Positions 2,759-31,619 of a DNA stretch of 35,512 bases are shown here, piece after piece. Below the pieces are notes generated by a model, which saw nothing but the letters and a program-made list of their open reading frames with translations, was not told where the DNA came from and ran no database searches. This stretch comes from a virus. Position 1 is the first letter of the stretch. Each line of letters starts with the position of its first letter. Location of the stretch: positions 1 through 35,512 of the IMG/VR virus record IMGVR_UViG_3300010158_000183, one strand, 5' to 3'. A program made the translations under genes and the position numbers.

Positions 2759-2767
2759 AATTGTTCC

Positions 2768-4534
2768 TTAAGAAAAAGACGTTCCTTTAAATGTAAACAC
2801 AAAGTCTGAGAATGTAGCGTCTACAGAATTAACTGTATTATCTATTTGGATAGCAAGTTCGTCAGCTATGTTAAAAGTTACTGAACTTGGAGAGCTAAAT
2901 GTTCCATTATATGAGCCTGATGCAAAAGTAATTATGCCAAACGGTGCATTATTTTTTAATATTCTAAATAAAACTGTGCCAGTTGGGGGGACTTTACACT
3001 GAGCTAAACTTCCTGCAAAATTTGCATCAAATGTAAAGATTCTTACAGCTAACATTCTCATAACAACTTCGTTAGCAAGTGGTTGGCCATTAATAAAATT
3101 AGATATGTCGTACGTTGACGGGCCAGAAGGCCCTTGTGGGCCTTGAACTCCCTGAACTCCTTGTGGGCCTTGAACTCCCTGAACTCCTTGTGGGCCTTGA
3201 ACTCCCTGAACTCCTTGTGGGCCGGGGGTAGGAGGATTGTTGTCAACCCAAATATTATTATAATATATGTAAGTTCTTCCAGTAATACTATTATACCATA
3301 AACTTCCTGTGTTAACAACAGAAGGCGCAGTATCACTGATATAGGTGTCAGGCCCTTGAGGACCTTGAGGACCTTGAGGACCTTGAGGTCCTTGGGCGCC
3401 ATCAACTCCAATTCTTCCGTCAACACCCGATGGGCCTTGAACTCCTTGCGGGCCTTGAACCCCCTGTGGCCCTCGAACTCCTTGTGGGCCTTGAACCCCT
3501 TGTGGGCCTTGGGGACCTAGCACCTTGACATTAGTATTACGAAATCCGCCAACTAGACCTGTTCCGTCGTATATCCATAAAAGTCCGGTATCGATAGCCA
3601 CCCAACCATCACCAATCATTGGATGCGGGTCAATATTGTTAAAATATTCTATTGTTCCAGAAGGAATTTGACTAATAATATTAAAGGGAACTCCGTCTAA
3701 CCCACGAGGGCCTTGCGGCCCTCGTGAACCGATAATACCGCTAGGGCCTCTCGGACCAGACGGGCCAGTCGGCCCTTGAGAACCGGCTATTCCCTGGGGT
3801 CCTAATGCACCGGTCGGCCCAGATGGTCCAGTCGGTCCTGTTGATCCCTGAGAACCTTGCGGTCCCGAAGGGCCTATATCTAAAATACCGTTACGATAAA
3901 GAGAGCCTGTATAACTAATATCTCCATAAATATTCAATCCTTGCACCACGGTGGAGGTAGTAACGGTTGATAAAGATTGGAATTGAAACGTTTGATAAGT
4001 AGATGAATCTATAGTAAATGCCGAGTTTGATATTAGCCCAAGCGTAACATTATGATTTTTTATAAAAGCTAAATTTTTAGTTTGTTCATTTCCCGGAATA
4101 TCTTTAATAATAAGATTAGATAATTTCCATCCTGTACGAGAGTTCTCTTCTGCGGTAGGACCAATTATATTATATCCGTTATCTAATTTAATTTTTAATT
4201 GATTCGTAGTGATATCAAACCATAGATCCCCAATTAATTGATTATTATCAGGGCTCGAGGATACCGTAGCACCGCCAATGGGGGTCCACGTATCCTTATA
4301 TATTTTTAATCTTTCGGTTTTATTATCGTACCATAATTGTCCGGGTAACGGACTTCTTGGATTAGAATCTCCTGCCGAATTTGATAACAATCTTATAAAG
4401 TTATTGTTAAAATATTCACCGTAAGAATTTACGTCTCTTCCCACTAAGGTAAGTGAGGTTGTATTTTGATCAACAGTACCGTTTGCTAATAAAACTAGCG
4501 TGGTGCCGTCAGGGTTTAAAATATTATATGACAT
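2768..4534 (-). CDS. Collagen-like tail fibre protein (588 aa)
   Basis: Residues 1-130 form an N-terminal domain shared with the next fibre upstream ([33 protein letters not shown]), probably the baseplate-proximal attachment part. Three Gly-X-Y collagen-like blocks follow at about residues 220-282, 339-396 and 436-473, rich in GPQGVQGPQ. Short G-x-LW-x-D/N units with a tyrosine-rich strand interrupt them ([24 protein letters not shown]). Residues about 490-588 form a beta-rich C-terminal head ([14 protein letters not shown] through [10 protein letters not shown]), a type of domain often found at phage fibre tips. Collagen-like Gly-X-Y repeats in phages form trimeric rods. The protein is taken to be a trimeric fibre that presents a C-terminal receptor-binding head. 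The gene starts one base after the stop of the upstream fibre gene. Confidence 0.85.
3132..3221 (-). repeat. 27-bp tandem repeat in the collagen-like fibre gene
   Basis: Three identical 27-bp units (3132-3158, 3159-3185, 3186-3212) plus the first 9 bp of a fourth encode the nine-residue unit GVQGVQGPQ three times. Perfect identity at the DNA level, including third positions, points to recent slippage or recombination, so copy number may vary between related phages. Confidence 0.92.
3354..3396 (-). repeat. 9-bp tandem repeat encoding GPQ units
   Basis: Three exact CCTTGAGGA units are followed by two diverging units (CCTTGAGGT, CCTTGGG). They encode GPQ triplets in the second collagen-like block of the fibre. 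Like the 27-bp array nearby, the units are multiples of three, so expansion or contraction keeps the reading frame. Confidence 0.88.
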
Positions 4535-6312: not shown

Positions 6313-6975
6313 TTACATTCCGGCAGTTAAACTTTGGATACGCACAGTATATTCTATTTGAATCATCCTGTTTAAAGATTTTTGCACGGGGTGAAAAATA
6401 ACATGGGTTAATAAATCGCCAGTCCCTACACCGTTGGCACTATATGCTTTTAATCCTAATTCGTCAAATATAAAAGAATCATTGGCAGTAGTACTGTTGT
6501 CAAATGCGCTTTGACCTGCTGGTTCTCCAAAATCTAACAAACAATTTACTAATACATCTGCATATGATGTACCTGCTACGTGACGAACTTCCATATAATT
6601 TCTTGAAGGGTCTAAATCAGTAGCCTGTTTAGCATCAATTGCTTTAACATACTGTTGGTTATATAAATCGGCGCTAATACCGACGGTATTAGGAGTTAAG
6701 TAAGTAATAATTCCAGTTTGATCTACTCGTGTTCCTCCGTTACCGAACGCCATGTCTACAATGAATCCAAAGCCTTGATTGCTGATACTCTGCGCCATAG
6801 CTACAGCAAAATTTTCATAATGGATAGCGTTACGCTTGTTAATAAAAACTTCTTTAGTCAAAGGATCAAAAATTTTTATATGCCCTTGTATACTAAAGGC
6901 GCCGCGTTCGTTGGGTTTTGATGGTGGTTTCATGTTAGATTCTTTCGGTAAAAATTGTGTATTTTTGTTGTCCAT
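6313..6975 (-). CDS. Virion structural protein linked to the fibre cluster (220 aa)
   Basis: The body (residues 24-220) begins ERGAFSIQGHIKIFDPLTKEV and ends with a beta-rich segment LNRMIQIEYTVRIQSLTAGM. I remember similar proteins next to fibre genes in marine T4-like phages, but I cannot name a T4 counterpart. No signal, membrane or catalytic motif is seen. The ATG at 6975 has no ribosome site and lies only 5 bases after an ATAAATA box. An alternative ATG at 6933 (Met15) has only a weak GAAAGA upstream. If 6975 is right, translation may be leaderless. It is the first gene of the fibre cluster, separated from the giant gene by 81 bp. Confidence 0.7.
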   Translation of the reverse strand: MDNKNTQFLPKESNMKPPSKPNERGAFSIQGHIKIFDPLTKEVFINKRNAIHYENFAVAMAQSISNQGFGFIVDMAFGNGGTRVDQTGIITYLTPNTVGISADLYNQQYVKAIDAKQATDLDPSRNYMEVRHVAGTSYADVLVNCLLDFGEPAGQSAFDNSTTANDSFIFDELGLKAYSANGVGTGDLLTHVIFHPVQKSLNRMIQIEYTVRIQSLTAGM

Positions 6976-7056: not shown

Positions 7057-10000
7057 CTATCCGTGATTCCCTCCATAGTACCAAATATCAGGCAGTTGAG
7101 CAGACTTTGCCTGTAAAAATCTCGCCTGTAAACTTGTTCCGGTATTTAAATAATTCCAATTTGAATTATATGTAGATTGTTTCTTTATAATCACTACCTT
7201 AACATTTGCCTCTATACCCTCAGATATGTTTAAAGTCAATTGATGCGTTGATGTATTAATACTAAACTCTGGGGGGTGATAGTTCAATCCTCGATAAACG
7301 TAGCCTTTTATTGCATCGGCAGCTAAAGAATTTTCGTATATCCACACTTGGTTCGTTTCGATGATACGGAAAGCGTCCCCTAATTTTGCATCAGACGGTA
7401 GTAAGCTTATAGTAGCCGTTGTCATGATATTTTCCGTAGAAATTAAATTATTATCGTATGATAACGAAGTGTCTTGGACAAATATTCCCGACTTTCTAAG
7501 AGGTCTTCCTCCATAAAATACCATTAATTGATCGACGGCAGGAACATTCATTTCTAATGTTTGAGAATTATTACCGTACCCATTTAATTTGATTGATCCT
7601 TGAACGCTCAATTCATTAGATGCATTAGACGATGTGTCGTACAAAGAAAAACTATTAACACTAATTTTTCTTACAAAATAGGTATTTTTATCAACTAATC
7701 CGTTTATAGGAGTATTTCCATGAGAAGAATATAGTACTGCTTCTCCTGTTAAAAATCCGTGATTGGGTACTGTAATAATTCCATTACCCAAGTTGATTGA
7801 ACTAGTGGAAATTGTTATCACATGATTTCCTAGCACTATTCCATCGTTTAATGTATCAGACTCCGAATGAATTTGATAGGTCGATGTTGTAGAGGTTGTT
7901 AAAAACGACTGTCGCAATACGGTTTCTTGGAAGGGCATGGTTTGATCATTATTTTGATCAGTCACCCGAGTGCCAACTTCGAGGTAAGTGCTTGGACTTG
8001 TACCCAAAGTTCCTCTGCGTAATTGACTTAATACATTACCGTCGATTCTATAGAATTCAATTCTTTCCCCTTCAATTATTATAACGCCGGGTATTTTTTT
8101 AGAAATTATCGGTCTGGTTAAAACTAGCGCATCATCGACAACAATTTCAGTGTCTGTAACTTTTAAGGCCTGTGCTAACTTAGTAGAATTTTGTGCCGAT
8201 AATCTCTTAAATGATGTTCTATTAAAGATATCATTAAACATCCTAAATCCTACGACCCGAGCATTTAATCCTTGATCAGTTATACTAATAACTTCCACTC
8301 TATCGGCATCCGTTAACTGGTATCTTTCACTCAATTGAACAGTAAATCTATCATTTAATACAGTATAGTCGACTGTGTTAATTAAAGGAATTCCATTTAA
8401 AATTATCCATATATAATTGTTGTTTAAAATAGGTCTTGCAGTTTTAAATCTTCCTACACTGTTTCCAGAATAAGTTGTAGTTTCGATCATCATATTGTCA
8501 TGATTAGTATAAGTTATTACATTTAATTCAGCGTCTACATCAAAATTTGACAAAGTTACTTGAGATCCTACAATATCATAATCATAAAACCCTTTAGGAA
8601 ACCATAAAATAGCAACAACATCATCGATTGCTAAAAGTCGATCATTAATAGTTACGGAATTATTATGCGAGTCGACAGTAAAATCAGCATCTTTAAAAAT
8701 TTGTCGACCATTTATATAAACTCGTACCGTATCCGGGTCGTAAGAAACATTAACATCATATATATAAAAATCTATTACATCGCCTGCCTCTAAAGGAACT
8801 GCGGTCGTAGCGTTGAAATATATTTCATTTTTAACATAGTCAATATCTTCTATAATTACACCGGTATTTGACCCGAATAGCTTATTACTTGTTCCTACAA
8901 GTACTCTTCCAATTTGGTAAATTTCTGCGAAATCCTTTACTGATTTTACCTGTATACCATTGGACCCTGCAGGGATTGCAGTAGTTATATTTTGAGTTAT
9001 AGAACTATAGTCTCTATTTTGCGGAAACCTATTTTGCGGATCGATTAGAAATGTAGAAATCCGACGATCAGTGATGTTATAATATGTTACTGGCGGAGGT
9101 AACATAATTTTAAACCCTGTTCCGGTGTTAATTTCGACTATTGCTTGTACTGCCTCTGGAAGAATAACCTTTGGAGGATAAGTCAATGTAGCCGTAGATG
9201 TAAAGCTAGAGGCAGTTATAGTAAACATCTGTTGGTTAATTTCATTAAATAATTTGTAGGTATTTCCAAAGAAAAAAGAATGTATGTTATTATCGCCGTT
9301 AGGTAAATTATAAACTGTAGTAGCGGCTCTATTATTATTCGTGCTAACTGGTCCTAACTCAAAATAACAATAGGAAACCGTTGATGTAGAGTGAAAGCCT
9401 AAAGACCGCTGTTGAATACTTTCTCCGTTTACATACACAATCGCATCTTTTACAGTATTAATATCCGATAAACTTTGTACTTGTCCGATAGGTTCATTAT
9501 TTGTAAATGACTGTGATGCGCTGTCTATTACACCCCTATAGGTGCCAAATGCTTCTCCCCCGATGCTTATTATTCTATAACCGATATTACCGCCACTTGA
9601 TTGCGGAGCAATTATCAAGGTGTTATTAATCCAATCGATAGTAAACTCTGTAGAATCCACGTATTGAGTAAAGTCTGTATTATTACTGTATGTAAAAATT
9701 TTATTTTGATAATATACAGAAATACTTGCCGGATTAGTTGGTTGAATTGATAGTTTTATCGTGGTAATTGCATTGTTATTTAAAGGAGCATAACTCGAAA
9801 TTACGGTAGGAGCACTTCTATCATTTATAGTGTAAACATTCAAAGAAAAACTATCCAAAGTATTTCCGGGGACTAGTTCTTCAGGGGCATGCCCGTAATC
9901 TGGAGTAAAAAATTCGCTACCGTCAATACTAATCCCTTCCGGAGAAATTAAATTAATTTCCTCCGGATTGATTCCAAAAGGATTTGAAATACCGACGTTG

Positions 10001-13000
10001 TCGAAGGTACCGCCGATAATGTTACTATCGTATAAAGAAGAGTTCGAATCAAATGTCCAAAATTCCACTATGTCGCCTATATCTAAACCTGCAACTAACG
10101 GATCGCTTAAAAATATTCGAGATGTATCGTGGTCAATACTAACAACTGTTACATCAGTTGTAGTGTTAAGTTTATTTTCGGCATTTGTTTTACTAATAAT
10201 ATTAACCAACTGCCCGATTTTAATATTTTCTGTAGTATCTACTTTTATTTCATTATAATCAATAACAGAAGTAAGGGTTTGTAAATCATTACCGCGTCCG
10301 CGTAAATCACAAAGCCCTATCATGCTTGTTTCATTGGAGGCATTAGCTAACGTATTGTATAAAGAAAAATTATTAGAGTCAATTATTCTTACAAAATAAA
10401 CACGACCGTCAACTAAGCCGTCTATAGGAAGAAAACCTTGAGCGTTGTATAATACAGTCGTACCTGTCAAAAAACCATGATCCTGTATTTTAAAAATTTT
10501 AGTCTTTAAATTAATTGTATTAGTATAAACTGTTACAGAATTATCTAATTTTGGTGCAGGAATTTTTTCTACGACTCTAGATAAATTATAATAATTAGAA
10601 TTATCTGCAAACACATCTTGACCAAAATTAGAGTTAGATTGATCCCAAATTAATACATAATTAAAAGGTAGTGATTGTATATTGGTTTTAGGAAAGTCTA
10701 TACCGGTCATTAACTGTCCTAGCTCAAGCCCCGGCATACCAGATGTTGCAGTATAAAAATTTAAAATTCTTTCAGTTGCATTAAATAATTCTATATTTTT
10801 ATTATACGCAACCGACAATCGTTGATTAAACTTCGGTGTATAATTTAAAAATACAATTTTACACAATTTTTTTAAATATCCGTTGATATTCTTAGTGAAA
10901 AAATCAATTTTAAAATCTGATAACAATACATAAGACCCATCGAGTGTTACCATCATTTTAGATTTAGTTGTATCAGCTAGCCATGATAATTCAAAATTTG
11001 TAGTAAATCCGTCACATATAAAGGTGTCAACAGTAGCTGTCGATTCAAATGAATTATTAGTAGAAATACGATCAAATTTCATTCCTATTAAATTATTACG
11101 GACAGTACCGTTAGCTAGACGAGCATAAGCAACAGCAGGCTTCACGTTCGGATCGTTACTATGTATAATTACTTTAGGAGGTTTTAGATAATTTTTTCCA
11201 GAAGACAACACAATTATTTTGCTGATCTGTCCTCCGGTAATATATGCTTTTGCAGTCGCTCCGGATCCAAAATCGCCGTCGGCAGTTTGTAGCTCAACAG
11301 TTGGGGGAGTAGCATAATTACTTCCGGGATTTCCAATATCGATGCTGTCGACGTAAAATTTATAATTTTCAGCCCATGCTTTCCAAGGATATGTATTTAA
11401 AAAATTATCGTTAAGAGTTATGGGTTGGTACGAATTAGTCAAAGTATTATAGATTGCGGGTAAATCAAAATCCGTAGTAAAGGTCTGCGAAGGGTCTACA
11501 TACGTATGATTGGTTGTGTAATTCCTTATCTGAGTATGATATGGTTTTACTTCGGAAATATAATTAATGAAATAAGACGAATCTTGTAATTTATAAACAG
11601 GTCGCTGATCTAAGTTTCCGGCGTAATTTGTTACATTTATGAAACTTGTTTTAAATGCCCAGTCTAATAATTTTTGTTCTGTCAGCGCATATTTTACTGC
11701 ACTAAAGAAAAACAAATTCCAATTGACTTTTAATTCTCCAACAAATATATCATTTTTTAATGCGTCAATGATATTTGTTAATTCTATATCAGCTGTTTGA
11801 TCAAATAATGTTTGATCATAATTAAGTGTACTGAATCCTAAATTTCCAGAAGACGATGACCATAGAGTATCTAGCAACTGTATTGTCCCATTTTGTTTAA
11901 AAACCAAATTATAATTATTACTAAAGTTTCCAGCATCGGGCTGTGTTTTTTCTAAAATTATATAATTTCCGTCACTACTATTGTTTACTTTAATATATTG
12001 GTTAATTTGTGCATCCACTAGAGAAGAGAGATACCCTAAAGAAGGAATAGTGGCCGAGTATGGTGTATACTCATTAAACGTACTACTTTTATAATCAACA
12101 TACTTCCAATAAAGACTAGTATTATATAATTGTGTGCGTATCTTAATCCACTGGTTAGTTAATTTATCCCAGGAATACATGGCCCATTTTCCGTTGCTGT
12201 CGGTATCGGTTAAAACTAGTACAGTATACGGACGCACTGATAGAATTGGCGCGGTTGTATAATTGTTGCCTGGATTTTTTATGTCAGCAGATATAACCTT
12301 ACCATTTAAATCAATCTCAGTAGTTATTATAGCTTCGGTTCCTAAATCATTAGAATAAATTGTAACTGTAGGGGGAATCTTATAACCAAATCCTTGATTA
12401 ACTATTTCAACGGTGTTAATTTTTCCATTCTGCACTGTGCAAGATATTTCAGCCTGTACTAGTCGAGCAGTTTTTATAATATCTCTTAACACAATATCCT
12501 CTACTACTTGATCATAGGTATGAGAATATTGATCTGGATGCGGCTGTTCAGATTTTAATTTGTCGAAATTATAATTTCCTGTAAGTTGATTAGAAATTAA
12601 AATTTTATTTACAAAACCAACTAGATTGCGTAGTGCTTTTTGCCTATCAATAAACATGCTTTGTCTAGGACGAATGTCGATACCATAGGCCATTCTTTGA
12701 GATAATTTAGGATCAGGCACCGGATTTCCAAGACTATCGTGCCCTAATAAACTGTCGATTAATTTTTTTTCTAATAAGGTATTTGGGCGACTATCTACAT
12801 TTCCTTCTTGTAACAACAACCATTCTGTATGTTTGTTGATTATATTATTAGTTTTATCCAATGCAATATTTAAATTAATATTATTAGAAACTAACTCTGT
12901 GCCAATATTAGCTAAAGACAACGCCGATGGAGCGATTGGTGATAAAAATTTATAGCCATAACTTACCGGATCTGCAATAAGGCTCGCTACCTCAAACGAA

Positions 13001-16000
13001 CTTTTTCTTCTATTTTTTGTTGCAGGTATAGTAATTTTATTTTTAACCCAATAATAATAATAATTAGTTAAAGACCCCGACGAAGTATAAACTTGTTTTA
13101 CCGCCATTACATTTCCTGTGGGATACTTAGGCTGTCCACTTATACTTTCTACCAGTCCAGCAGTAGTATCTGCTATTACACTCCATTCGTTTGGCAAATA
13201 TTTTGTTCCCACCCATTCATAAACATCGATAGTTGCTCCTGGGAACAGTTTCCCCCAATTATTTTTTCGATATTTTAATTCTCCCTGTTCGTACCACATG
13301 TACTTTACTGTACTCAAATCCCACCAAAGTTCCCCAACATGATCGTCGAGCCAACTGATATTTGTATTAACATTTACACTTGCAGTTCCTATAGAATATA
13401 TTGCAGGGTCATACGATGATATATATTTTAATTCTTGTTTAGCTACTCCTGGAATTTTTCCCTTAACCGGGTCAATTATATCCAAATAGTCGACTATTTT
13501 TTCGCTAAATGTGTCTATTAAAGAAATTTTTTGAAATTGATTTACGTCTACCAGATCCGGTTGTTCTCTTAATTTTTGCCAACTGCCGATTGAAGGATTA
13601 ATTTTTTTGAACTGATAAAAAAGTCCATTCTGATCAGGCTTCCATTGGTCGGCTAAAAACGGGGACCCTACGTAAACATTATTATCGTCGACTTGTAAAC
13701 TAATACCGTATTCTGAATTTGTAACGTGATTAGTAGGATTTAATTCATCATCTAAAGAAAAGCTACCATGAGGATCTTTTTTATTGTAGACATACACCGC
13801 ACCTGAATTTCCTAAAAAGTCAACCAACACCGTTTCGTTAGTATCGAATGTTACCGAACCAAACGGTGATTTACTATCAAATGTTGTATGTTGCGGGGTA
13901 CTTCCCGATCCAGCGGATATTATTAAATCACTTGCGTCACTATTGCAATCGATCGCTTTACCAAATTTCATTCCTCTTCCTTTATAAGGATTGGTAAGAA
14001 TCTGATTAAGTATAAAAGTTCCAGAGTTATTAATAAAAATTAAAACTCTTCCGTACGATCCATCAGAATGTAGATAAGATGGTGCAGATACAAAAAGATA
14101 TCTGCCGTCAGGACTTACAGTGATTGCCGAACCAAATTCATCTCTCTTTGAAAATCCAAAATCAGACCCGTTAATAGTTTGAATAGGATCTAATTTATTA
14201 GCCAATTGCTGATATATAGATACGAACCCGGTGCTTATTTGTGAGCCAGGAGCACTAATAGCTATAAATTTTGCATCATCTGATCCGCTTATACTATAAC
14301 CCCATAGCGATCCAATTGAAATAGAATCCGTATTCTGCGGCAAAACTACTCCTGTATAAGTTATTTTCAAAGACTGTTCCGAAGAATCGACCATGTATGA
14401 ATACACTGCACCGGTTCCTGTTGTACCTGTTGCAGGAGCTCCTACTAATAACAGTTTTACATCTGAATTTCTCTGCACGAAAAGAGATGACCCAAATCGT
14501 TGATAATTTGACGAATTATCAGGACTTAATAATACAAATTCTGTTTTTTGAGATAGCGTCTTGGAAGATTTACTACTTATTTTTACTAGGCCCTCTTGCA
14601 CTAAAGTTGATATTGTCCCGTGTCCGGTTGAATATCTCAACCCCCCTTCTATAGAATCCGAAACTGTTGCACATGCTCCCGGAGCACCAACAAATAGTAG
14701 TCCAAAATTTGTACGGTTGAAATCGATATCGTCATAAATCATTGCCTTACCAGTTTCGATAGGATAACGAGAGTGGTGATAAAATACCGAAGCATATCCA
14801 TCTTGGTTAATATCATATTTGAAAAATAGTTCAGGTGTTGTTTTAGAAACATCATACACATAAATCTTTCCGCTTGCTGTGGTCAAATTTGTAACAATTG
14901 GTTGTATTACAGTATTCCCACTCCCGCCTAAGTTACCTTGAATTTCCGGACTAGTGTCAATTGTGCCGAGACCGTAAGGAGCTGCCACCATCAAAACATT
15001 TGAGTTTTTTCTTTTAGAAATAACTCTACCAAATTCTACTGTCGAGGAATCACTATTTTGTATTGAGCTAATAGCATAATTTTTAACTTTTTGATATACT
15101 GCCCAACGGCCGGTTCCGTCGTCGTCGATCCATAATTTTGAACCGTACGGTAATTTTAATAATCTATAATCACTAGGTATTTGAGAAAGTGTTGGAAATC
15201 GCTGACTAATAAATTTAAATAACAATCCCGGAAATACTGTCGAATTCGTACTGTTAATAGTTGACAACGACGATAATACCGTGATTTCTCTAGATGTAGG
15301 TGTATCAAAAATTCTATAAATTCCGTCAACTTGAGAATTAAAATGAGAACAGAAAATTATATCGCCAACTTGTAAATTATGAGTAATGTCTGTAGTAAAA
15401 GTAATTGACACTCCTCGAGAACTTACATAAGCCCCAATTATCCTCACACCTGTATTTTCATATCTTAGAACATCCCAGTCCCCATCGGCTTTAAAACCTA
15501 ACCATACAGTTATTCCCTCTGGAAGAGACGAATTAGCAATATCTAATAGACTATTTTCATTGTAGGCAGTAGCGGTAACATCATCAATTCTAACATACCC
15601 TGCGGTATTTATTAATAAACTATCTGTACCTGTAGTCGAAAATACCGAGTTTACGTTAAAATCTTTAGGCATAATCTGTAAATCGCTCGAAACAACATGT
15701 ACAGTTAGATCATTTTGTTCTATAGGCTTTGTAGAAACAAAATTAAGAAGTTGAGGACTTTCTAAAAACGTCCCTTCTATTAGAGGAAATTCAATTTCAT
15801 TATATGTAGAAAAAGACCCGTAACATCCGACTCTAAATGCCCATTCTTCTGAATAGTCTATTTGCCCTTGCAAATTATATAAACTTGCTTTAGAAAGCTT
15901 TGATATAGAATTTTTTGTACCTTTTTCTCTAATGTAGCCTTGATAAAATTTGTACTGTGCTATCGGACTACTAAAAATGTTATTTAAATTTGGACGAGGA

Positions 16001-19000
16001 GTATATCCAGTAAGATGCTGTGCCATTTTTTCTTGACCGGCATCAAAATTATCTATATTTAAATTATAAAAATCTGGAAACTGACCAATTTTATAATCGA
16101 AATTTGGAATCAACCCTGCAACAGGTTTTTTATCTAATAGTATCCACCCTGCCGATACATTAAATGTTGCAGACCCGACTATATCCTGTTTTGCAGAATA
16201 ATACTTTCCGTTAACACTAACAGTATCTGCATAAACATAATCAATATACGGTTTCCAGGTATGGATATTAGCTGTATCGTAAACAAACCCAGGTGCCGAA
16301 AAATCTCCTTTCCATCCGGAAGTTCTTAAACCGGATAATTTTACACGCAATTGCCTATATCCGGTTTCAATATCAAATATTGTATCATTAAACAAGCTGG
16401 TATTCTTAAACACCATACCGTGTTCTTTTTGTACCGGTCTCAATATAGCAAAATAAATCCCCTGAGTAGTATTATTTGTAGAAATAGTACAAATTCCGTC
16501 TGCTCTATTTACGGAAAGATTTTTTTGTGAAAATGGTTTTCCGTCTGCTCTTAAAATACTATACTCATGAAAACTATCAAACAAGTTGTCAACGACCGCC
16601 ACGTTAGATTTAAATTTAATTTGATTAGCAAACGGACTTAGAGTTATTAAACTATTTTCAACCCAGTGTTGACTTGTCCAGAATAAGAATTCTTTAGCAG
16701 AAAAATTCCAATTTAAAATTTCTCCTAAATCTACATTATATTCATCAAATATAAATCCTCGACTTTCTAAATAATGTCCATATCCTATGATAAAATCATA
16801 AACCTCTTGGATTGTTGAAAATTCAGTCCCGTATGGTATTTTTGTAATTTGTGTTGAAAATCCAGCGGCACGCTGTACTGTGACTCCTCCGGTGATTGGC
16901 AGTTCCGATAATTGTACATATAAAGATTCATTAAAAGAACTTTCCGCTGTGTGACTAACTTTTACTCTATAATATTTGTTCTTGTAAGAAACAAGCTGAC
17001 CTTGAGTATAAAATAGTGTAGTTGGTGCAGTTTTAGCCGAAGTTGTGTCAACTGTAGATAATCCAACCGGTCCTGGAGATGATGCAGAGCTCCAAGTTAC
17101 ATATGATTCCGAAATTCCGCCAATCGTAAGGGGAGGGGTGGAATTATTTCTTGTCGGAAGATATACATTAAAGAAACCTCGATATTGATCGTAACCTTTA
17201 ACAGAAAATTTTCCGTTTAATTTCTGTATAACTATACCGCTTATATTTGCAGATCCTACCGGACTACTAGAATTTAAAAATAAAGAATAATCCTCTTGAG
17301 GTAATATTGCTCCAGGGTCAATCGATGTTGGGCTATAAGCATCAATAAGAACAGTCATATTGTTTTTGTTTATAAATCCGCCGACTTTATAAAATAGATT
17401 AATATTAAAATATTTTAAATCTTTCTTTAATTCTTTTATATAATTAGTAGATCGTTGCTGCCCATACTCTGAGACATACACACTATAACCGTTTGTTAAT
17501 GCGCCGTTATCTCCGTAAATTACCACATTTTTTGGATTTAAAAATTGATGGTTATCGCCGTAAGTCCATTGTTTAGCAATATTAAGATTAATTCTACTAG
17601 GATCATATAATAAAGAAGAATAAACCGCAGGTTTAATCAATGCTAGTAGTCTTTGAATAGCGAATGGATAAAAACTACTTCTGCGCCACGCGGTTTCTAC
17701 TGGACCTTGGTCGCCAAACACGAAAGGCCGTCTTATAGAATATGCTGTAGTGTTAGACAATAACTGATCAGGAGGAATCAATTCGCCATATTGATTCACC
17801 GGTAGTATTTTATTTAATCCCGGTCTAGCATAAATTGGGTTACCGCCGCCAGTTTCTACATAATCCCATAATATTTGATTTCCGGAAGTGTAGGGAGCAG
17901 GCCCATATGTAGATTCCCAGTCATTTGGTTTTTGAGATAACCCTAACATTTCCCAAGGATGAGTGTGCGGGCGCTCAGTATCGTATAATATTTTATATAT
18001 GTTTCTCCAATAACCAGATACAGGTGTATTACCGTTAGATTCAACCGCTCCTGTATAATTCCAAGTAAATGAATTAAATTCATCGAAGGTCGGATTTGTA
18101 GAATAATCTATACCAAAAATTCCAGCCCATTTAATAAAGTCTGCTTCTAATACCTGTGTTACGTCGAATGTCGAGTATTCAGAATTTCTAAAATTACCGG
18201 GCAACACCGAGTTTATGTCAAATAATTCCGAACGATATGCGGCTTTAATGTTATTATAAATTCTTTTTTCTAATTCTAAAATAACTTCGTCTCTGTAATC
18301 ATTATAGGCAATTGTAATGCTACCATCGTGTCCTTGGATTACTTTTTGAGGAGTAATATAGGTATTGTCAACATATATACTAGGTACAAATACCGGATAT
18401 AAACCTAATTTAGACGGAGTAGGTGGTATATAACATTTAGATGTATCCTGATAATCATTAATTGTAATAACATCGCCAACCTTCAACTTAATTAAAAATT
18501 CAACAGACGAATCAGTTGGAATAAATTTATAGTCAATATTAGAAATTAATTGAACACCGTTAATATACACTAATACAGATCGCAAATTCAACGTCGAAAG
18601 ATCAAAAGAATTTGTTAAAGGATATACCGTATTTCTAGAATCTGTTACAGTCCATGTTCTAACAATTTTATCTTGGCCGTATCCTATCATGTCTGATAAA
18701 GAATAGGAGTCTACATTTTTTTTATTTTGATTAATATTAGAAATAGCTATGTCAACCGCCGAAACGTAATCTATTTGATCGGATTGAGATGCTATTTGTT
18801 TTAAAAAAGATAATTTAAATTGATTATACTTTTCTCCTGCATCCTGAACGGCATCGATTAAATTATGATATTTGTCTCCAATAAAAAGAAAAGCAAACGG
18901 TAAAGGATTAGCATTTGAAATTAACTGAGTTCCTTTATAGACTGCCAAATCTCTTAGATTGTTCAATCCGGGGTAATTTCCAGAAAAATTAGAAGATGCA

Positions 19001-20970
19001 TTGATCATAGTTTTGACATGATCTGTTATTTCAGTTTCTGTCATAGACCCAATCGGTCCGTTAAGAGGATTGTTTGTAAGAGACAGGGGTATTTGATAAG
19101 AGCCACGCAAGGTTGGTACGGCGGTGGTATTATAAATTTTAAATAAAACATTTGAGTAAACAGGTAACAAATTATTAAAATTTACAAAATAATTTGCAGA
19201 TGTTGTTGTTGTAGAATAATCTAATTTAGATAGTTTAATATTATTAACATATACATCAAATTCAAACTGGGCTTTTACTGGATTAGAAATTGCAGTAAGT
19301 TGAATACTTGCAGTCGAAGCTATAGTTGTTTGAAATTGTAAAATAGGTATTTGAGGTTTATCTAATTCTTGCCAGACATTCACAAATACATCGCCTGTCA
19401 AATTAAAATATTTTAAATAAGTTGTAGACGTAGGTACATTAGTTAAAATATTATTATTCGAAATCGTAATTATGCCTGTCATAAAATAATTATTAAACAG
19501 GTAACTTCCAACTCCGACACTATTTTTATATAATAACGGAAAACCTAACACAGGATCAATCGGACCTGTTCCGACAGCATAATTAAATAATTTGTTTCCA
19601 GAAAAATCTGATTGATAATGCATACGGTCGCTGTAGCTGTTTCCTTCATTATCAAATAAATCAAATAAAGGAAATTCGTTTAGAGCCCGGTGTTGTTGAG
19701 AAAAAATCCATCGGTTTCCATCAAAGTGCCAACTTGTTCCTAAATATGTCTTTCCATAATTAACTATAATAGAAGATTCAATAGGTGGCCTCTGAACTTC
19801 TAATAGTTGAATTTGATAAACACCATTTACTTTGGTGAAATTAACTTCGTATACAGTTCCTCTAACTTCTTGATTTTTATCTGCATTAAAAATTATTTTA
19901 TTACCTTGTGCTAAGGGAACGCCGTCGACAAAATAACCTTCTGCACCTTCTACTATATTAAACGCATCTATAGTATCTGTATCGATAATGTCAATTTTTA
20001 AAATGCCTACTGTACCGAAATTATATAATTTAAGATTGGCATTAAATTCAACAATAGGTCTCTTTGCCCGGGCACTTGCATCATATACCGGAACAGTTCC
20101 GTTTACGGTAGCACTAGTGTTTATTATTTCTTTATGGACCCATCGATTGTATCTCGACCAAGGATTTAAATCTCGACTAGCACGATTTATAGTAATATAT
20201 TCTGGAAACTCTGAAAGAGAATTAGCATTATCAAAAGGATAGTGATCAAAGGGAAGTGTATCAAAATTTTCTAAAAAATCTTTGTTTATTATAATAGAAG
20301 CAGTCAGCTGATCATAATCTACTAATACAATAGAAGTGCCGACTCCTTCGACAAAGTATGTTTTATTTTGATAGTTTTTTGGAGAGACATGGGATGAAAA
20401 TTTAATTTTCATCCCATTAGATAAAGACTGTTGTTCCGTTGACCCTATGTTTGTTATGTAACTAAAAGTGTAATTTGATTTTCCTATAATATCAGTTTCA
20501 ACGTTTATAATAGAGTTAAAAGAATCGATAAAAATAGTTTCAGGACCTGTAGGTAACCAATAATATTCTTGATAATTTGTAAACTTATCCCAGCTGATAT
20601 GTGGGTTATAAGAATAGACCGAAGATCCATATAGCTTATTAAAATCTCCAGGTAATCCACTTTGTATTAAAATTGTATTAGTTAAATCGTCTATTCCGAT
20701 CGCTCTTTGTATATTTTGTAATTCATCATACACAACTAGCGCGGGATTGAACTGATAATCTCTACGAAATTCCAGTACTTCCGAAATATAATTATCTGTC
20801 AAAACATTATAATTTGGAGATAGTCTGCTACCTATAAAACCGCTAATGCGCTCTAATTGAGCCGGTTGTATTAATTGGTCAAGCGTACTAGACAAAAACT
20901 TTTTATTTTTATCTGTTTGAAAATACTCGGGTAGTAAATTAGATGAATTAATTTTATTATCGTTAGACAT
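7057..20970 (-). CDS. Giant multidomain baseplate/tail structural protein (4637 aa)
   Basis: One uninterrupted 13.9-kb frame starts at an ATG at 20970 with an AGGAA ribosome site, one base after the gp6 stop, so it sits where T4 has gp7. Residues 1-160 (LPEYFQTDKNKKF, FRRDYQFNPAL, YEYYWLPTGP-like text) resemble the start of large structural proteins of marine T4-like phages, as I remember them. Internal modules include: a Y-V/I-N-G beta module repeated near residues 794, 4077 and 4188; a conserved region near 900-1180 (RPHTHPWEMLGL); an FG-GAP propeller at about 1975-2445; GxxYxxPPxVxI units near 2855, 2900, 3210 and 3255; HGFLTG units near 3490 and 4395; and a RGTLGT unit near 4320. There is no transmembrane segment or obvious enzyme site. 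T4 gp7 has 1032 residues, so this is over four times larger. It probably replaces several wedge or fibre proteins; homology to gp7 is not shown. Confidence 0.85.
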   Translation of the reverse strand: MSNDNKINSSNLLPEYFQTDKNKKFLSSTLDQLIQPAQLERISGFIGSRLSPNYNVLTDNYISEVLEFRRDYQFNPALVVYDELQNIQRAIGIDDLTNTILIQSGLPGDFNKLYGSSVYSYNPHISWDKFTNYQEYYWLPTGPETIFIDSFNSIINVETDIIGKSNYTFSYITNIGSTEQQSLSNGMKIKFSSHVSPKNYQNKTYFVEGVGTSIVLVDYDQLTASIIINKDFLENFDTLPFDHYPFDNANSLSEFPEYITINRASRDLNPWSRYNRWVHKEIINTSATVNGTVPVYDASARAKRPIVEFNANLKLYNFGTVGILKIDIIDTDTIDAFNIVEGAEGYFVDGVPLAQGNKIIFNADKNQEVRGTVYEVNFTKVNGVYQIQLLEVQRPPIESSIIVNYGKTYLGTSWHFDGNRWIFSQQHRALNEFPLFDLFDNEGNSYSDRMHYQSDFSGNKLFNYAVGTGPIDPVLGFPLLYKNSVGVGSYLFNNYFMTGIITISNNNILTNVPTSTTYLKYFNLTGDVFVNVWQELDKPQIPILQFQTTIASTASIQLTAISNPVKAQFEFDVYVNNIKLSKLDYSTTTTSANYFVNFNNLLPVYSNVLFKIYNTTAVPTLRGSYQIPLSLTNNPLNGPIGSMTETEITDHVKTMINASSNFSGNYPGLNNLRDLAVYKGTQLISNANPLPFAFLFIGDKYHNLIDAVQDAGEKYNQFKLSFLKQIASQSDQIDYVSAVDIAISNINQNKKNVDSYSLSDMIGYGQDKIVRTWTVTDSRNTVYPLTNSFDLSTLNLRSVLVYINGVQLISNIDYKFIPTDSSVEFLIKLKVGDVITINDYQDTSKCYIPPTPSKLGLYPVFVPSIYVDNTYITPQKVIQGHDGSITIAYNDYRDEVILELEKRIYNNIKAAYRSELFDINSVLPGNFRNSEYSTFDVTQVLEADFIKWAGIFGIDYSTNPTFDEFNSFTWNYTGAVESNGNTPVSGYWRNIYKILYDTERPHTHPWEMLGLSQKPNDWESTYGPAPYTSGNQILWDYVETGGGNPIYARPGLNKILPVNQYGELIPPDQLLSNTTAYSIRRPFVFGDQGPVETAWRRSSFYPFAIQRLLALIKPAVYSSLLYDPSRINLNIAKQWTYGDNHQFLNPKNVVIYGDNGALTNGYSVYVSEYGQQRSTNYIKELKKDLKYFNINLFYKVGGFINKNNMTVLIDAYSPTSIDPGAILPQEDYSLFLNSSSPVGSANISGIVIQKLNGKFSVKGYDQYRGFFNVYLPTRNNSTPPLTIGGISESYVTWSSASSPGPVGLSTVDTTSAKTAPTTLFYTQGQLVSYKNKYYRVKVSHTAESSFNESLYVQLSELPITGGVTVQRAAGFSTQITKIPYGTEFSTIQEVYDFIIGYGHYLESRGFIFDEYNVDLGEILNWNFSAKEFLFWTSQHWVENSLITLSPFANQIKFKSNVAVVDNLFDSFHEYSILRADGKPFSQKNLSVNRADGICTISTNNTTQGIYFAILRPVQKEHGMVFKNTSLFNDTIFDIETGYRQLRVKLSGLRTSGWKGDFSAPGFVYDTANIHTWKPYIDYVYADTVSVNGKYYSAKQDIVGSATFNVSAGWILLDKKPVAGLIPNFDYKIGQFPDFYNLNIDNFDAGQEKMAQHLTGYTPRPNLNNIFSSPIAQYKFYQGYIREKGTKNSISKLSKASLYNLQGQIDYSEEWAFRVGCYGSFSTYNEIEFPLIEGTFLESPQLLNFVSTKPIEQNDLTVHVVSSDLQIMPKDFNVNSVFSTTGTDSLLINTAGYVRIDDVTATAYNENSLLDIANSSLPEGITVWLGFKADGDWDVLRYENTGVRIIGAYVSSRGVSITFTTDITHNLQVGDIIFCSHFNSQVDGIYRIFDTPTSREITVLSSLSTINSTNSTVFPGLLFKFISQRFPTLSQIPSDYRLLKLPYGSKLWIDDDGTGRWAVYQKVKNYAISSIQNSDSSTVEFGRVISKRKNSNVLMVAAPYGLGTIDTSPEIQGNLGGSGNTVIQPIVTNLTTASGKIYVYDVSKTTPELFFKYDINQDGYASVFYHHSRYPIETGKAMIYDDIDFNRTNFGLLFVGAPGACATVSDSIEGGLRYSTGHGTISTLVQEGLVKISSKSSKTLSQKTEFVLLSPDNSSNYQRFGSSLFVQRNSDVKLLLVGAPATGTTGTGAVYSYMVDSSEQSLKITYTGVVLPQNTDSISIGSLWGYSISGSDDAKFIAISAPGSQISTGFVSIYQQLANKLDPIQTINGSDFGFSKRDEFGSAITVSPDGRYLFVSAPSYLHSDGSYGRVLIFINNSGTFILNQILTNPYKGRGMKFGKAIDCNSDASDLIISAGSGSTPQHTTFDSKSPFGSVTFDTNETVLVDFLGNSGAVYVYNKKDPHGSFSLDDELNPTNHVTNSEYGISLQVDDNNVYVGSPFLADQWKPDQNGLFYQFKKINPSIGSWQKLREQPDLVDVNQFQKISLIDTFSEKIVDYLDIIDPVKGKIPGVAKQELKYISSYDPAIYSIGTASVNVNTNISWLDDHVGELWWDLSTVKYMWYEQGELKYRKNNWGKLFPGATIDVYEWVGTKYLPNEWSVIADTTAGLVESISGQPKYPTGNVMAVKQVYTSSGSLTNYYYYWVKNKITIPATKNRRKSSFEVASLIADPVSYGYKFLSPIAPSALSLANIGTELVSNNINLNIALDKTNNIINKHTEWLLLQEGNVDSRPNTLLEKKLIDSLLGHDSLGNPVPDPKLSQRMAYGIDIRPRQSMFIDRQKALRNLVGFVNKILISNQLTGNYNFDKLKSEQPHPDQYSHTYDQVVEDIVLRDIIKTARLVQAEISCTVQNGKINTVEIVNQGFGYKIPPTVTIYSNDLGTEAIITTEIDLNGKVISADIKNPGNNYTTAPILSVRPYTVLVLTDTDSNGKWAMYSWDKLTNQWIKIRTQLYNTSLYWKYVDYKSSTFNEYTPYSATIPSLGYLSSLVDAQINQYIKVNNSSDGNYIILEKTQPDAGNFSNNYNLVFKQNGTIQLLDTLWSSSSGNLGFSTLNYDQTLFDQTADIELTNIIDALKNDIFVGELKVNWNLFFFSAVKYALTEQKLLDWAFKTSFINVTNYAGNLDQRPVYKLQDSSYFINYISEVKPYHTQIRNYTTNHTYVDPSQTFTTDFDLPAIYNTLTNSYQPITLNDNFLNTYPWKAWAENYKFYVDSIDIGNPGSNYATPPTVELQTADGDFGSGATAKAYITGGQISKIIVLSSGKNYLKPPKVIIHSNDPNVKPAVAYARLANGTVRNNLIGMKFDRISTNNSFESTATVDTFICDGFTTNFELSWLADTTKSKMMVTLDGSYVLLSDFKIDFFTKNINGYLKKLCKIVFLNYTPKFNQRLSVAYNKNIELFNATERILNFYTATSGMPGLELGQLMTGIDFPKTNIQSLPFNYVLIWDQSNSNFGQDVFADNSNYYNLSRVVEKIPAPKLDNSVTVYTNTINLKTKIFKIQDHGFLTGTTVLYNAQGFLPIDGLVDGRVYFVRIIDSNNFSLYNTLANASNETSMIGLCDLRGRGNDLQTLTSVIDYNEIKVDTTENIKIGQLVNIISKTNAENKLNTTTDVTVVSIDHDTSRIFLSDPLVAGLDIGDIVEFWTFDSNSSLYDSNIIGGTFDNVGISNPFGINPEEINLISPEGISIDGSEFFTPDYGHAPEELVPGNTLDSFSLNVYTINDRSAPTVISSYAPLNNNAITTIKLSIQPTNPASISVYYQNKIFTYSNNTDFTQYVDSTEFTIDWINNTLIIAPQSSGGNIGYRIISIGGEAFGTYRGVIDSASQSFTNNEPIGQVQSLSDINTVKDAIVYVNGESIQQRSLGFHSTSTVSYCYFELGPVSTNNNRAATTVYNLPNGDNNIHSFFFGNTYKLFNEINQQMFTITASSFTSTATLTYPPKVILPEAVQAIVEINTGTGFKIMLPPPVTYYNITDRRISTFLIDPQNRFPQNRDYSSITQNITTAIPAGSNGIQVKSVKDFAEIYQIGRVLVGTSNKLFGSNTGVIIEDIDYVKNEIYFNATTAVPLEAGDVIDFYIYDVNVSYDPDTVRVYINGRQIFKDADFTVDSHNNSVTINDRLLAIDDVVAILWFPKGFYDYDIVGSQVTLSNFDVDAELNVITYTNHDNMMIETTTYSGNSVGRFKTARPILNNNYIWIILNGIPLINTVDYTVLNDRFTVQLSERYQLTDADRVEVISITDQGLNARVVGFRMFNDIFNRTSFKRLSAQNSTKLAQALKVTDTEIVVDDALVLTRPIISKKIPGVIIIEGERIEFYRIDGNVLSQLRRGTLGTSPSTYLEVGTRVTDQNNDQTMPFQETVLRQSFLTTSTTSTYQIHSESDTLNDGIVLGNHVITISTSSINLGNGIITVPNHGFLTGEAVLYSSHGNTPINGLVDKNTYFVRKISVNSFSLYDTSSNASNELSVQGSIKLNGYGNNSQTLEMNVPAVDQLMVFYGGRPLRKSGIFVQDTSLSYDNNLISTENIMTTATISLLPSDAKLGDAFRIIETNQVWIYENSLAADAIKGYVYRGLNYHPPEFSINTSTHQLTLNISEGIEANVKVVIIKKQSTYNSNWNYLNTGTSLQARFLQAKSAQLPDIWYYGGNHG
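7560..10500 (-). repeat. Duplicated HGFLTG module in the giant protein
   Basis: Two segments of about 75-80 residues, near 3490-3565 (DNA about 10280-10500) and 4393-4470 (about 7560-7790), share HGFLTG, then VLY, then PI(D/N)GLVD, YFVR, NxFSLY(N/D)T and NASNE. They end in G(R/Y)GN(D/N)xQTL. They are clearly paralogous, while third positions differ at many sites, so the duplication is old. A weaker relative (THNLQVGDIIF) lies near residue 1870. The coordinates span both copies, with unrelated sequence between them. Confidence 0.8.
13650..15045 (-). other. FG-GAP (integrin-alpha-like) beta-propeller inside the giant protein
   Basis: Residues about 1975-2445 contain about seven FG...GAP-type units: FGRVISKRKNSNVLMVAAP; FGLLFVGAPG; RFGSSLFVQRN...LLLVGAPA; WGYSISGSDDAKFIAISAPG; EFGSAITVSPDGRYLFVSAP; KFGKAIDCNSDASDLIISAG; and EYGISLQVDDNNVYVGSP. 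Several are followed by GxVxxY strands, and DINQDGYASV near residue 2050 resembles a calcium-binding FG-GAP loop. These are hallmarks of integrin-alpha-type seven-bladed propellers, which bind protein or glycan ligands. Confidence 0.75.
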
Positions 20971-20971
20971 T

Positions 20972-23900
20972 TTAATTTCCTACGTTAGTGATTATCATTG
21001 TAGAATTTAATTGACTAGCAGTTATTGCATCAATAATTTCAATGTTATCAATCGTTGTTCCGCTAATAAAAATTTCATTGCTAGCACAGGTTATTTCATA
21101 TAAACTTCCAAAATTATTAATTACCGGAACTATTATAAAGTTAGTAATATTGGGAGTCAGTAAATTCATTACATAAGTTGACAATTCACTAAAATTAAAA
21201 GTTTGACCAAAGTCCCAATTTTCTAAAGAAAAGAAGTAATTAATAGCATTAAAAATTTGTGTTTTTATTTCGTTATCACTTATCGGAATCGCAGGATTCC
21301 TTACTGCTTTAAACGTCGCTTGCAAGTTTATATCTGCTAAACTACCAAATAATATTTTATAAGACACAGGGTGATAGACTATCTCGTCACTTATTGTTTT
21401 AATTTGATTTAAAGAAGAATCAAAGTTATTAGATAAATCCTGACTAGTAGGGGGAAGAGGCGCTGGACCAACTTGCGTAGCTAACCAACTTCTGTAAGAA
21501 TTATCATAACTAGCAGTTAATACATAAATGTCCATGATATTGCTTTTTCCTGGATCTATTCTTCTTTCTTTGCCGCTATTATGAACGTAATGAAATTTCA
21601 ATCCGCCTCGGCCGGGGTATCCAAAATAATCCGGCCGAAATATCCAGCCATTGCCGGTATCGTGAAATTGTTGTGACGAATACTGTTTAACTACGTTTAA
21701 CGACGGGTCACTAAAATAATATAGATGCCCATCTTTGGGGTCAACTACAGTTTTTTCATCCGTGGCAGTTGTTGCCGTAATCGGTGTTGATGTTTGGTTA
21801 ACTACTTGATATCTAACCCCGTCTGATAATTTTTGAAAATAGACATAATTGCCAGAGCCTCCGACAATTTTTTTAAAGGTATCTGGTTCTGAAATTACTC
21901 CAGAATTATTATAATCATAAAAACTAACTAATACTTTAGATGGATCAGTATAGCCGTCCGGCTCAATAATATAGTTGTCTATCTGTAGCGAATAATCTTT
22001 GTTTAAGCTGTTAAATGTTGCAGGATCTGTATTGAAAGAAAGAATATCTATTTTGTCTTTCAACACAGTGTTTGTAATATAATCAAAATTTACATCAGTT
22101 GGATCAATGTAAAATCCTGTTTCGTTTTCGCTTTCAAAAATGTAATTAGTAGATCTGTATTGTACCAAATATTTATTTCCTTGCCAAATAAATGCAATTA
22201 ACCAACTCGAATCTAAATTAGCAGAAGTGGTATTTCCTTGGTAATCTAAAGAAAAAGGTTTTACTAAATTTAAATTTACATCAGATATAATATTCCAAGT
22301 TCTAGTAACTTTATCAAAACTTAAACCAAAGTTTTTTTGTATTAAACATAAATTAACCAATTGCATTTCAAAAGTGTAAGAATAAACTGTATTAAATGCA
22401 GGAATTATTTCAACAGGTGCGTATCCACTAGGCACAACATTATTTAAAATAATAGGCCCAGTGCCGTCATTTAGTGGTCCTTTGCCGGAGTTACTACCAT
22501 TTCCGATAACTTGAACTACTTTAGACCAAATATAGTCCGTTCCTTCCAGATTTTGAAACTTAATTAAACAACCAAGAGATACATAAAACAAATTAGTTGA
22601 TATGCCTGTACCTACACTAAGAGCTAACAGATCTGCCGCAGATTGATTTTTAAAATACCCTCGAGAGCTACCAGATACCTTGTTTACCTGTTTCCATATT
22701 AAATTTAAATAAACAAGGTCTTCTCTCGGATATCGATCAAGATAAAATGATCGCATAGTAGTTGAAGAAATTAGCGGCTCTACTTGTTTTTTAATCACGG
22801 TTAATATATCGTTTTTATTCCTAAATGTAAATTCAAAATTTGCTTGATACTCATTTTTATAAAAAATTCCATCAGATGCAAATATATTAGTTTTACTATA
22901 TTTGCCACTAACGTCAAGAAGATCAAAATATTTACTTGTTCCGCTTACGACGCGAGCTGTAGATTTTATTTTTAATATATCAGTAGCAGCCGTCAATGGT
23001 GCTATGTTGTAATCTTCTCCGGTGACCATTCTATTTTGGGTATAATACGATTGCGGGGCTTTTTGTTGTATACTAATATTTGATTCAGTCGACGAGCTGT
23101 TTGAAACTGTATATTGTAGTCCCAATACTAATGTCAATGTTTGGGATTGCCCATTTTTATTCACGTAAGGAATTGATACTGATACACCGGCCATTTGTTC
23201 TGGTTTAATATTATAAGTAAGTCCGTTACTTTGTCGATATAGTAAATTAAAAGTTCCTTTAGGTAGGTTTCCAAAACTACCATCGGCAAAATTTAAATCA
23301 ATTTGATCTTGATCTCGTGTTGTGATACTATAGATATTTCGTTGATCAATGTTTAAACTATTATAGATGATATTATTTCCAATTAAATTAGGAACAGCAG
23401 TCCATAAGTTATTGTAATTATTATTGTTATCTAATTGCCATAGCCAAACATCGGTATTATTAATATCGGTAATATTAATGCCAATTAGTTCATTAGGAAC
23501 AGGACTTGTTATAGTAAAATTAGATAATCCCAAAGAACCTTGTCGAAAATGTACAAAAAATCCTGTATTACCGCTACCAGAGCCTTGATTATCATTTTGA
23601 TATAAAAAGCTAAAGTTATTACCAGGGCGTGGAGGAACTTCGTATATTGCAGTTGCTTGACTAAATGTACAAGGTACTATTTCAAAGTTTGTAGGAATAC
23701 CATTTATGGTTTTATTAAAGGAAAATACAGGAACGTTAGTATTTTTACTATTAATAATATACTGTTCTGTTAATATACCATTTATAGTTTGTCTACCAGA
23801 CGGGGTGCCGAATATGTAAGATCCGGGCATACTAGAATTTAAAATACTTAAGAATTGATTATACCAATTTTTATTAGTAGAATCGTTCCATCCAACAACA

Positions 23901-24373: not shown

Positions 24374-24802
24374 TTAGAGGCCCACATCTTGATTAAAATT
24401 TAATTTTATTATAGCCGACTGGTTCGTATTTTTTAATAATACTGTTAATTCTAACAAATATCCTTGTTCGTATTCGTTTAAATTTATTTGTGTAACGGTA
24501 ACCCTCGGATCGCTATTGCATATTTGTGTAACATCGTCAACTATTGCTGTTCTTACTGAATCAGTTAGAGGTTCCATTAATAAATTCCATATAATACTAC
24601 CAAAATTAGGATTCATTACCCGTTCCCCCTTCTTGGTATTAAATTGATTTATAATGTCTTGCGTGACAATATCAAGATCGTACAAACGTGTATCAGGACT
24701 ACTATTGTTTATAGAACTAAATCCCCTGTAAAATTGACTTTGCTGTGTAGTATTTTGAACAGTATTTGAATTATTTGTGATTTCTAAATTTTTATATGGC
24801 AT
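24374..24802 (-). CDS. 25: Baseplate wedge subunit gp25 (142 aa)
   Basis: The protein has the gp25/GPW family signature: DLDIVTQDIINQF at residues 42-54, then GERVMNPNFGSIIWNLLMEP at 59-78, and a C-terminal beta strand pair with LELTVLLKN. The length is close to T4 gp25 (132 residues). In contractile tails gp25 is the conserved wedge core that anchors the first sheath disc to the baseplate. The EPR-like core motif appears here as GERVMNP. The ATG at 24802 has no ribosome site and is preceded at only 7 bases by an ATAAATA box. It lies between the spike gene and gp6. Confidence 0.92.
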   Translation of the reverse strand: MPYKNLEITNNSNTVQNTTQQSQFYRGFSSINNSSPDTRLYDLDIVTQDIINQFNTKKGERVMNPNFGSIIWNLLMEPLTDSVRTAIVDDVTQICNSDPRVTVTQINLNEYEQGYLLELTVLLKNTNQSAIIKLNFNQDVGL

Positions 24803-31319: not shown

Positions 31320-31619
31320 TTATATCCCTAAAGAATTTTTAATTGATGTAATTTTTGGTAGATAAATTTTTAATCCAGAACGCATGCTATAAATTGGATC
31401 AGTGACTACGGACGGATTCCTAACAGCAAATACCCACCATAGGTCCACATTTCCGTATAAATCATACGCTAATAAATCAGGTCGGTATTCATAATTTTTT
31501 GTTACAGTGAATAGTATGTCGTCTTTTTCAGCAGGAATACTCCTATAAGTCAGTATGTCGAGATATCCATTATTATTTTGAGTCGAATAATAAGGACTAG
31601 TATTTTTATAAACAGTCAT
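31320..31619 (-). CDS. 53: Baseplate wedge subunit gp53 (99 aa)
   Basis: The small protein matches the gp53 pattern: YLDILTYRSIPAEKDD at residues 19-34, then YRPDLLAYDLYGNVDLWWVF, RNPSV and DPIYSMRSGLKIYLP. In T4, gp53 (196 residues) bridges adjacent wedges and completes the hexagonal baseplate; this is a compact version covering the conserved LysM-like part. Its ATG overlaps the stop of the upstream gene as TAATG, with an AAGGA site, so translation is probably coupled. The product acts with gp6 and gp25. Confidence 0.9.
   Translation of the reverse strand: MTVYKNTSPYYSTQNNNGYLDILTYRSIPAEKDDILFTVTKNYEYRPDLLAYDLYGNVDLWWVFAVRNPSVVTDPIYSMRSGLKIYLPKITSIKNSLGI

Follow-up and report, generated by a model that had tools for sequence, protein, structure and literature searches.

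Organization of the gene cluster

The window analyzed here is a complete IMG/VR virus record of 35,512 bases, yet it represents only part of a phage genome; because it is a 35.5-kb contig, absences from it weigh little alone. In the order of minus-strand transcription, its genes encode a 290-amino-acid (aa) protein, gp53, a 1288-aa virion protein, a gp5-like hub, gp25, gp6, a giant protein, a 220-aa protein, a 591-aa tail-collar protein and a collagen-like fibre protein. The gp53 gene (positions 31320-31619, minus strand, like all features of this series described below) matched PF11246 with 21.9 bits (cut-off, 21), and the gp25 gene (24374-24802) matched PF04965 with 41.8 bits (cut-off, 27.2). 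The gp6-like baseplate wedge subunit (20972-24316; 1114 aa) was assigned to phrog_10646 'baseplate wedge subunit' with E = 5.5e-290 and is 33-35% identical to gp6 of phages PA5oct, Atu_ph07 and RaK2. Profile matches to the gp5-like hub (24846-27449) revealed an OB fold, a lysozyme/SLT-type region (aa ~535-600) and, under the Pfam cut-off, a C-terminal GDSL/SGNH-like hydrolase region (aa 723-811), an unusual combination for a hub protein.

Downstream of the giant gene lies the gene for the 220-aa protein (6313-6975), which is conserved in relatives and 36-51% identical to counterparts in PA5oct, Atu_ph07, Phosso, SCTP-2 and Vibrio 2.275; in PA5oct, the entry for this protein bears an ESI-MS/MS note. 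The fibre protein (2768-4534) has collagen-like GxY repeats, and its gene contains tandem repeats at 3132-3511 with exact 27-base copies and raised local GC. A protein at 3-599, incomplete at the window's left end, belongs to no Pfam family. To the right lie plus-strand genes that, by reading, resemble those for the late sigma factor, gp47 and gp46; RaK2 has these neighbours too.

The giant gene (7057-20970) encodes 4637 aa with a computed mass of 518.6 kDa. A sequence-only reading of this DNA had described an intact 13.9-kb frame occupying about 40% of the window right after gp6, and this description is accurate. The ORF starts with ATG, has no internal stop, covers 13,914 of the 35,512 bases (39%) and begins 1 base after the gp6 ORF. 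Its AGGAA-type ribosome site overlaps the 3' end of gp6.

Relatives of the giant protein, with 32-76% identity, are encoded at 41 IMG/VR loci, in most of them by one uninterrupted frame. When the window gene was aligned with that of relative L024 (4478 codons), differences at the first, second and third codon positions numbered 1042, 690 and 2008, and at 1315 positions a different codon specified the identical residue. This pattern is that of protein-coding constraint. In the close relative L030, the gene is broken by an in-frame stop (L030:20381) within conserved sequence, which is a sequencing error or a recent mutation. We considered a natural split into two genes at this site and rejected it: the frame is unchanged after the single stop, and the ATG that follows encodes an internal methionine in that frame, so that L030 does not look like a genuine two-gene split. 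That the giant frame is an assembly artefact or a chance frame, for which the broken L030 gene could be cited, is refuted by the many independent intact homologues and by the coding constraint, and we give it virtually no credence.

A known family of giant virion proteins

In the PHROGs comparison, the giant protein matched phrog_10938 'virion structural protein' in four stretches (E = 0, 1023.6 bits). The PHROGs category of this family is 'head and packaging', not tail. By tblastn, homologues were detected in some 60 phage records, among them those of PA5oct-like Pseudomonas phages, Atu_ph07, Phosso, SCTP-2 and RaK2-like and 121Q-like phages. Their lengths are 3857 aa (PA5oct gp355), 4449 aa (Atu_ph07 gp180), 4555 aa (Phosso), 3807 aa (SCTP-2), 3326 aa (RaK2 gp465), 3340 aa (CBB_236), 3323 aa (121Q gp582) and 3138 aa (RAS14), the RaK2-like homologues spanning 3323-3341 aa. 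These named homologues share with the window protein its giant size, core homology in segments of 23-38% identity and the same place after gp6; their C-terminal modules differ. Nearly all are encoded immediately 3' of gp6, and the adjacency was seen in PA5oct, Atu_ph07, RaK2, Phosso, Vibrio 2.275, GAP32, CBB and 121Q.

Judged by the profile match, the giant protein is a further member of an already catalogued jumbo-phage virion-protein family of about 3,100-5,000 aa. The comparison of gene length with related phages, suggested as a check by the earlier reading, showed that its length is not exceptional: closed homologous frames in the IMG/VR relatives encode 3425-4877 aa, the named homologues have 3138-4555 aa, and several relatives have frames of at least 4987 aa, the fetched DNA ending inside the frame. 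The window protein is thereby confirmed as a large but ordinary family member.

That the protein is structural, also claimed from sequence, is supported by the phrog_10938 match and by homologues in virions. CBB_236 was found in virions with 21 peptides (PMC5259590), and the PA5oct gp355 record bears an ESI-MS/MS note. In phage phAPEC6, gp245 (381.88 kDa) was represented by 17 virion peptides and adjoins the baseplate wedge protein (PMC7247149); this protein is tied to the family by mass and gene order only, the computed mass of the 121Q homologue being an equal 381.9 kDa. AP-J-162 gp58 (4455 aa), published as a 'structural protein', has a gene number adjacent to that of a 1198-aa baseplate wedge protein and is 49.6% identical to Atu_ph07 (PMC11242549); we liken this giant to the window protein by description. 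Thus, virion presence of the family is known from homologues, and the window protein is predicted to be a virion component.

Two further records deserve mention. In SCTP-2 (L004:5621-14911), the gene preceding the giant homologue encodes 3096 aa, and its product had no blastp match to the window gp6 at E < 0.01. In Klebsiella phage K64-1 (NC_027399.1), the giant homologue is annotated in pieces, with up to 11 hypothetical proteins per match, probably through a fault in the annotation or the sequence.

Conserved core and variable modules

An alignment of 51 sequences divided the giant protein into two conserved and two variable blocks. Part 1 of the conserved core (aa 1-1960; 15091-20970) has an occupancy of 0.82-1.00, and part 2 (aa 2463-3440; 10651-13584) contains invariant W, P and G residues and an EVKPYHTxIR motif. 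Between them lies an optional cassette (aa 1962-2462; 13585-15087), and the protein ends in a variable array of beta modules (aa 3441-4637; 7060-10650), which was recognized by the alignment and by profile repeats and is 289-1288 aa long in relatives. Identity to L024 is 74-75% in the core, 66% in the C-terminus and 58% in the cassette. Thus, between these two proteins the cassette and the C-terminus evolve faster than the core. This cassette architecture of the family is under-described.

Two AlphaFold models, covering aa 790-1961 and 2300-3480, are both mainly beta, and neither had a match in the PDB at E <= 0.001 by Foldseek. At least five classes of repeats were found by profile self-comparison of the giant protein, and none by blastp self-comparison. 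The many repeated beta modules proposed from the sequence are therefore real.

The optional cassette was identified by motifs, Pfam and fold as an FG-GAP (integrin alpha-like) beta-propeller. It comprises about 500 aa in the window protein and up to 1041 aa in relatives L019 and L048; it measures 3 aa in L043, 5 aa in L040 and 56-58 aa in the RaK2-like homologues. The window cassette contains 6 copies of the FG-GAP motif (mean of 0.2 in shuffled sequences). FG-GAP_2 matched all 26 of the 26 cassettes, with a best E of 1.3e-20 and an E of just 0.015 for the window's own. By VIA, the modelled half (aa 2300-2473) resembled integrin alphaM (Z = 12.4, 136 aa, rmsd 2.7). FG-GAP repeats are present and an integrin-like propeller fold is predicted, the match to a solved structure spanning the modelled half, aa 2300-2473. 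The repeat motif of the integrin alpha-subunit propeller is thus common to aa 1962-2462 and its fold to the modelled half, whereas the phage propeller is inserted in a structural protein. FG-GAP motifs occur in the window protein and most freshwater relatives, in contrast to the named jumbo phages, in whose insert none was found. In a narrow literature search, no paper came up that reports an FG-GAP propeller in this position.

Core part 1 contains two domains resembling CBM5/12 (chitin-binding type 3). The first (aa 1312-1351; 16918-17037) was detected by Pfam (E = 1.2e-4; 22.4 bits, under the cut-off of 26.2) and by comparison with chitinase A1 (1ed7; E = 9.6e-4). The second (aa 1566-1613; 16132-16275) is a repeat of the first (E = 1.6e-6), and its model matched by VIA the Milano baseplate chain 8fqc_P1 (Z = 7.2, 45 aa, rmsd 1.2) and chitin deacetylases (Z ~6). 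In the same part, a beta-barrel module (aa 1836-1923; 15202-15465) resembles barrels of phage endosialidase and E1 enzymes (VIA Z, 8-9.4), and a VYINGxxL-DY beta module (aa 795-842; 18445-18588) recurs near aa 570-628, 3739-3792, 4079-4123 and 4182-4232 (profile repeats, best E = 1.8e-8).

Core part 2 contains a pair of GxGYxxPPxVxI modules (aa 2839-2914, 12229-12456, and aa 3206-3271, 11158-11355), related to each other with E = 5e-12 in the profile self-comparison. The beta domain at aa 3310-3395 (10786-11043) resembles residues 187-250 of CBA120 TSP4 and also fits T5/DT57C neck-portal chains, the matches covering 64-67 aa with a VIA Z of 10.0-10.1 and an rmsd of 1.4-1.5. In the C-terminal array, two HGFLTG modules (aa 3476-3577, 10240-10545, and aa 4382-4484, 7519-7827) match with E = 4e-19, and aa 3573-3647 are repeated at aa 4004-4078 (E = 2e-5), all by profile self-comparison.

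Relation to gp7 and probable place in the baseplate

T4 gp7 has the same gene position after gp6 as the giant gene, and the claim of a gp7 position holds, the giant gene following gp6 by 1 base in a gp53-hub-gp25-gp6 wedge cluster. T4 gp7 differs in being 4.5 times shorter (1032 aa), in being followed by gp8-gp12 and in lacking significant similarity to the giant protein at the sequence or profile level. The PHROGs search gave no match of the giant protein to phrog_964, the T4 gp7 baseplate wedge family. The profile search of slices that the sequence-only reading had called for, with gp7, gp8 and gp10, yielded no match to the T4 proteins by hhalign: probabilities were below 1% for T4-family gp7 and, among the matches listed, below 1% for gp8 and gp10. 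A cyanophage gp7 was matched with a probability of 97%. We rejected this match as homology to the gp7 core because its well-aligned columns sit in the mobile GxGY module; another match to a cyanophage, at aa 4101-4450, likewise appears to be a shared beta module and not the gp7 core. Chains of T4 gp7, gp8 and gp10 were absent among the Foldseek and VIA matches listed for the two models (aa 790-1961 and 2300-3480), which is uninformative. Thus, the giant protein is gp7 by position, and descent from T4 gp7 is not demonstrated by sequence.

Giant proteins at this position are known from cyanophages. In P-HM1, S-8S53 (3891 aa) and S-SSM7 (3007 aa), gp7 or the baseplate wedge initiator is giant and is encoded directly after gp25-gp6; cyanophage genes with these annotations after gp6 encode 3007 to ~4446 aa. 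The proteins have GxGY, HGFLTG and other beta modules in common with the window protein, whereas nothing in it significantly matches their N-terminal gp7 core. In S-8S53 and ACG-2014e, the giant gp7 is followed by a separate gp8-like gene, and S-SSM7 (L058:11989-27039) has two adjoining giant genes, both named gp7. Since the phrog_10938 family and these cyanophage giants are known, neither the giant size nor the position is in itself a novelty.

A separate gp7 and gp8 were sought elsewhere in the genomes of PA5oct, Atu_ph07, RaK2, SCTP-2, GAP32 and CBB and in 353-kb and 259-kb relative contigs. No match to phrog_964 was found in these eight records, and the positive controls T4 and S-8S53 were both detected. 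The gp8 profile phrog_438 and phrog_26741 gave short matches, almost all within the giant gene. They apparently reflect a shared beta module, which for the gp8-profile matches appears to be the GxGY module.

The T4 wedge requires a third chain besides the gp6 dimer. Genes for gp53, gp25 and gp6 all lie beside the giant gene, and gp7 is therefore the wedge part otherwise unaccounted for. We consider it probable that the phrog_10938 giant structural protein stands in for gp7 in the baseplate wedge, its core being either a gp7 descendant or a gp7 replacement. Its PHROGs category, the lack of significant similarity to T4 gp7 and the Foldseek result for the two models speak against this role. The two-block core (aa 1-1960 and 2463-3440) would pair with the gp6 dimer, like gp7 in T4, probably with one chain per wedge and six per virion, adding about 3.1 MDa to the baseplate. 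The FG-GAP propeller, the CBM5/12 domains and the C-terminal beta modules would face outward, where they may hold fibres or touch host-surface glycans. Such outward contacts would explain why these modules come and go or are exchanged, whereas the core is retained.

Compatible with this role in the wedge is a true, hugely expanded T4 gp7 homologue, with a helical core near aa 1627-1700 and the rest as insertion. We entertain this origin tentatively. It agrees with the gene position and with the behaviour of a candidate helix-KGT-helix stretch (aa 1627-1700; 15871-16092) in a comparison of 74 slices with gp7-core profiles built from the Ochrobactrum phage gp7 (631 aa) and T4-like and cyanophage gp7s and extended with IMG/VR relatives. 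Three overlapping slices containing this stretch ranked 1-3, with identical alignment; the single-test p was 7e-4 and the column-shuffle p 6e-5. Throughout the family, the stretch has a conserved FYxGxIxxKGT motif with a basic/hydrophobic helix after it, and the AlphaFold model shows a helix-KGT-helix-strand order there, in agreement with the gp7 alignment. However, p rose to 4e-3 with a larger gp7 profile, the first rank is nonsignificant after correction for the 74 slices, there is no direct profile match, and pLDDT in the stretch is mostly 30-55. A short HMM of the block scored at most about 0 bits, at scattered positions, with no single homologue higher. The comparison of the 74 slices was partly post hoc because the motif had been noticed before. 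The KGT stretch is a lead for gp7 homology, not a demonstration.

Another explanation holds that the giant protein is an unrelated peripheral adhesin or fibre-docking protein and that a different, unrecognized gene provides the gp7 function. Its adhesive content (CBM5/12, FG-GAP propeller, TSP4-like and endosialidase-barrel-like domains) and the absence of gp7 homology in the slice comparisons would fit such a protein. Against it, a conserved core of about 2,900 aa adjoins gp6 in nearly every relative inspected, this conservation exceeds that expected of a host-range adhesin, and no alternative gp7 was found in the relatives. We regard this explanation as unlikely.

The sequence-only reading had suggested a fusion that absorbed gp8, gp9, gp10 and gp11. 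Profile searches bore out its observation that none of gp8-gp11 is recognizable among the genes of the 35.5-kb window, and the TSP4-like beta domain at aa 3310-3395 also speaks for it. But no slice matched the T4 gp8, gp9, gp10 or gp11 profiles (for gp9 and gp11, nothing exceeded a probability of 15%), what the gp8 profile matched in relatives seems to be the shared GxGY module, and the propeller and a large part of the C-terminus are missing from short relatives (RaK2-like homologues and L043, with 3425 aa). The absorption is very improbable.

If the giant protein takes gp7's place, the central chain of the wedge may be a modular host-interaction platform, in which an integrin-like propeller and lectin-like domains are slotted into a conserved gp7-like core at fixed points; we advance this idea with some reserve. 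Were it true, recognition modules would evolve within the baseplate scaffold rather than in separate fibre genes. In the jumbo phages examined, gp6, gp25 and gp53 have been assigned (e.g. CBB, PMC5259590), and gp7 has not. The phrog_10938 family, found in dozens of viral contigs, is the evident candidate for gp7 in these phages. Natural variants exist with and without the propeller (L043, L040 and the RaK2-like phages being without it), and wedge architecture and cassette function are therefore directly testable.
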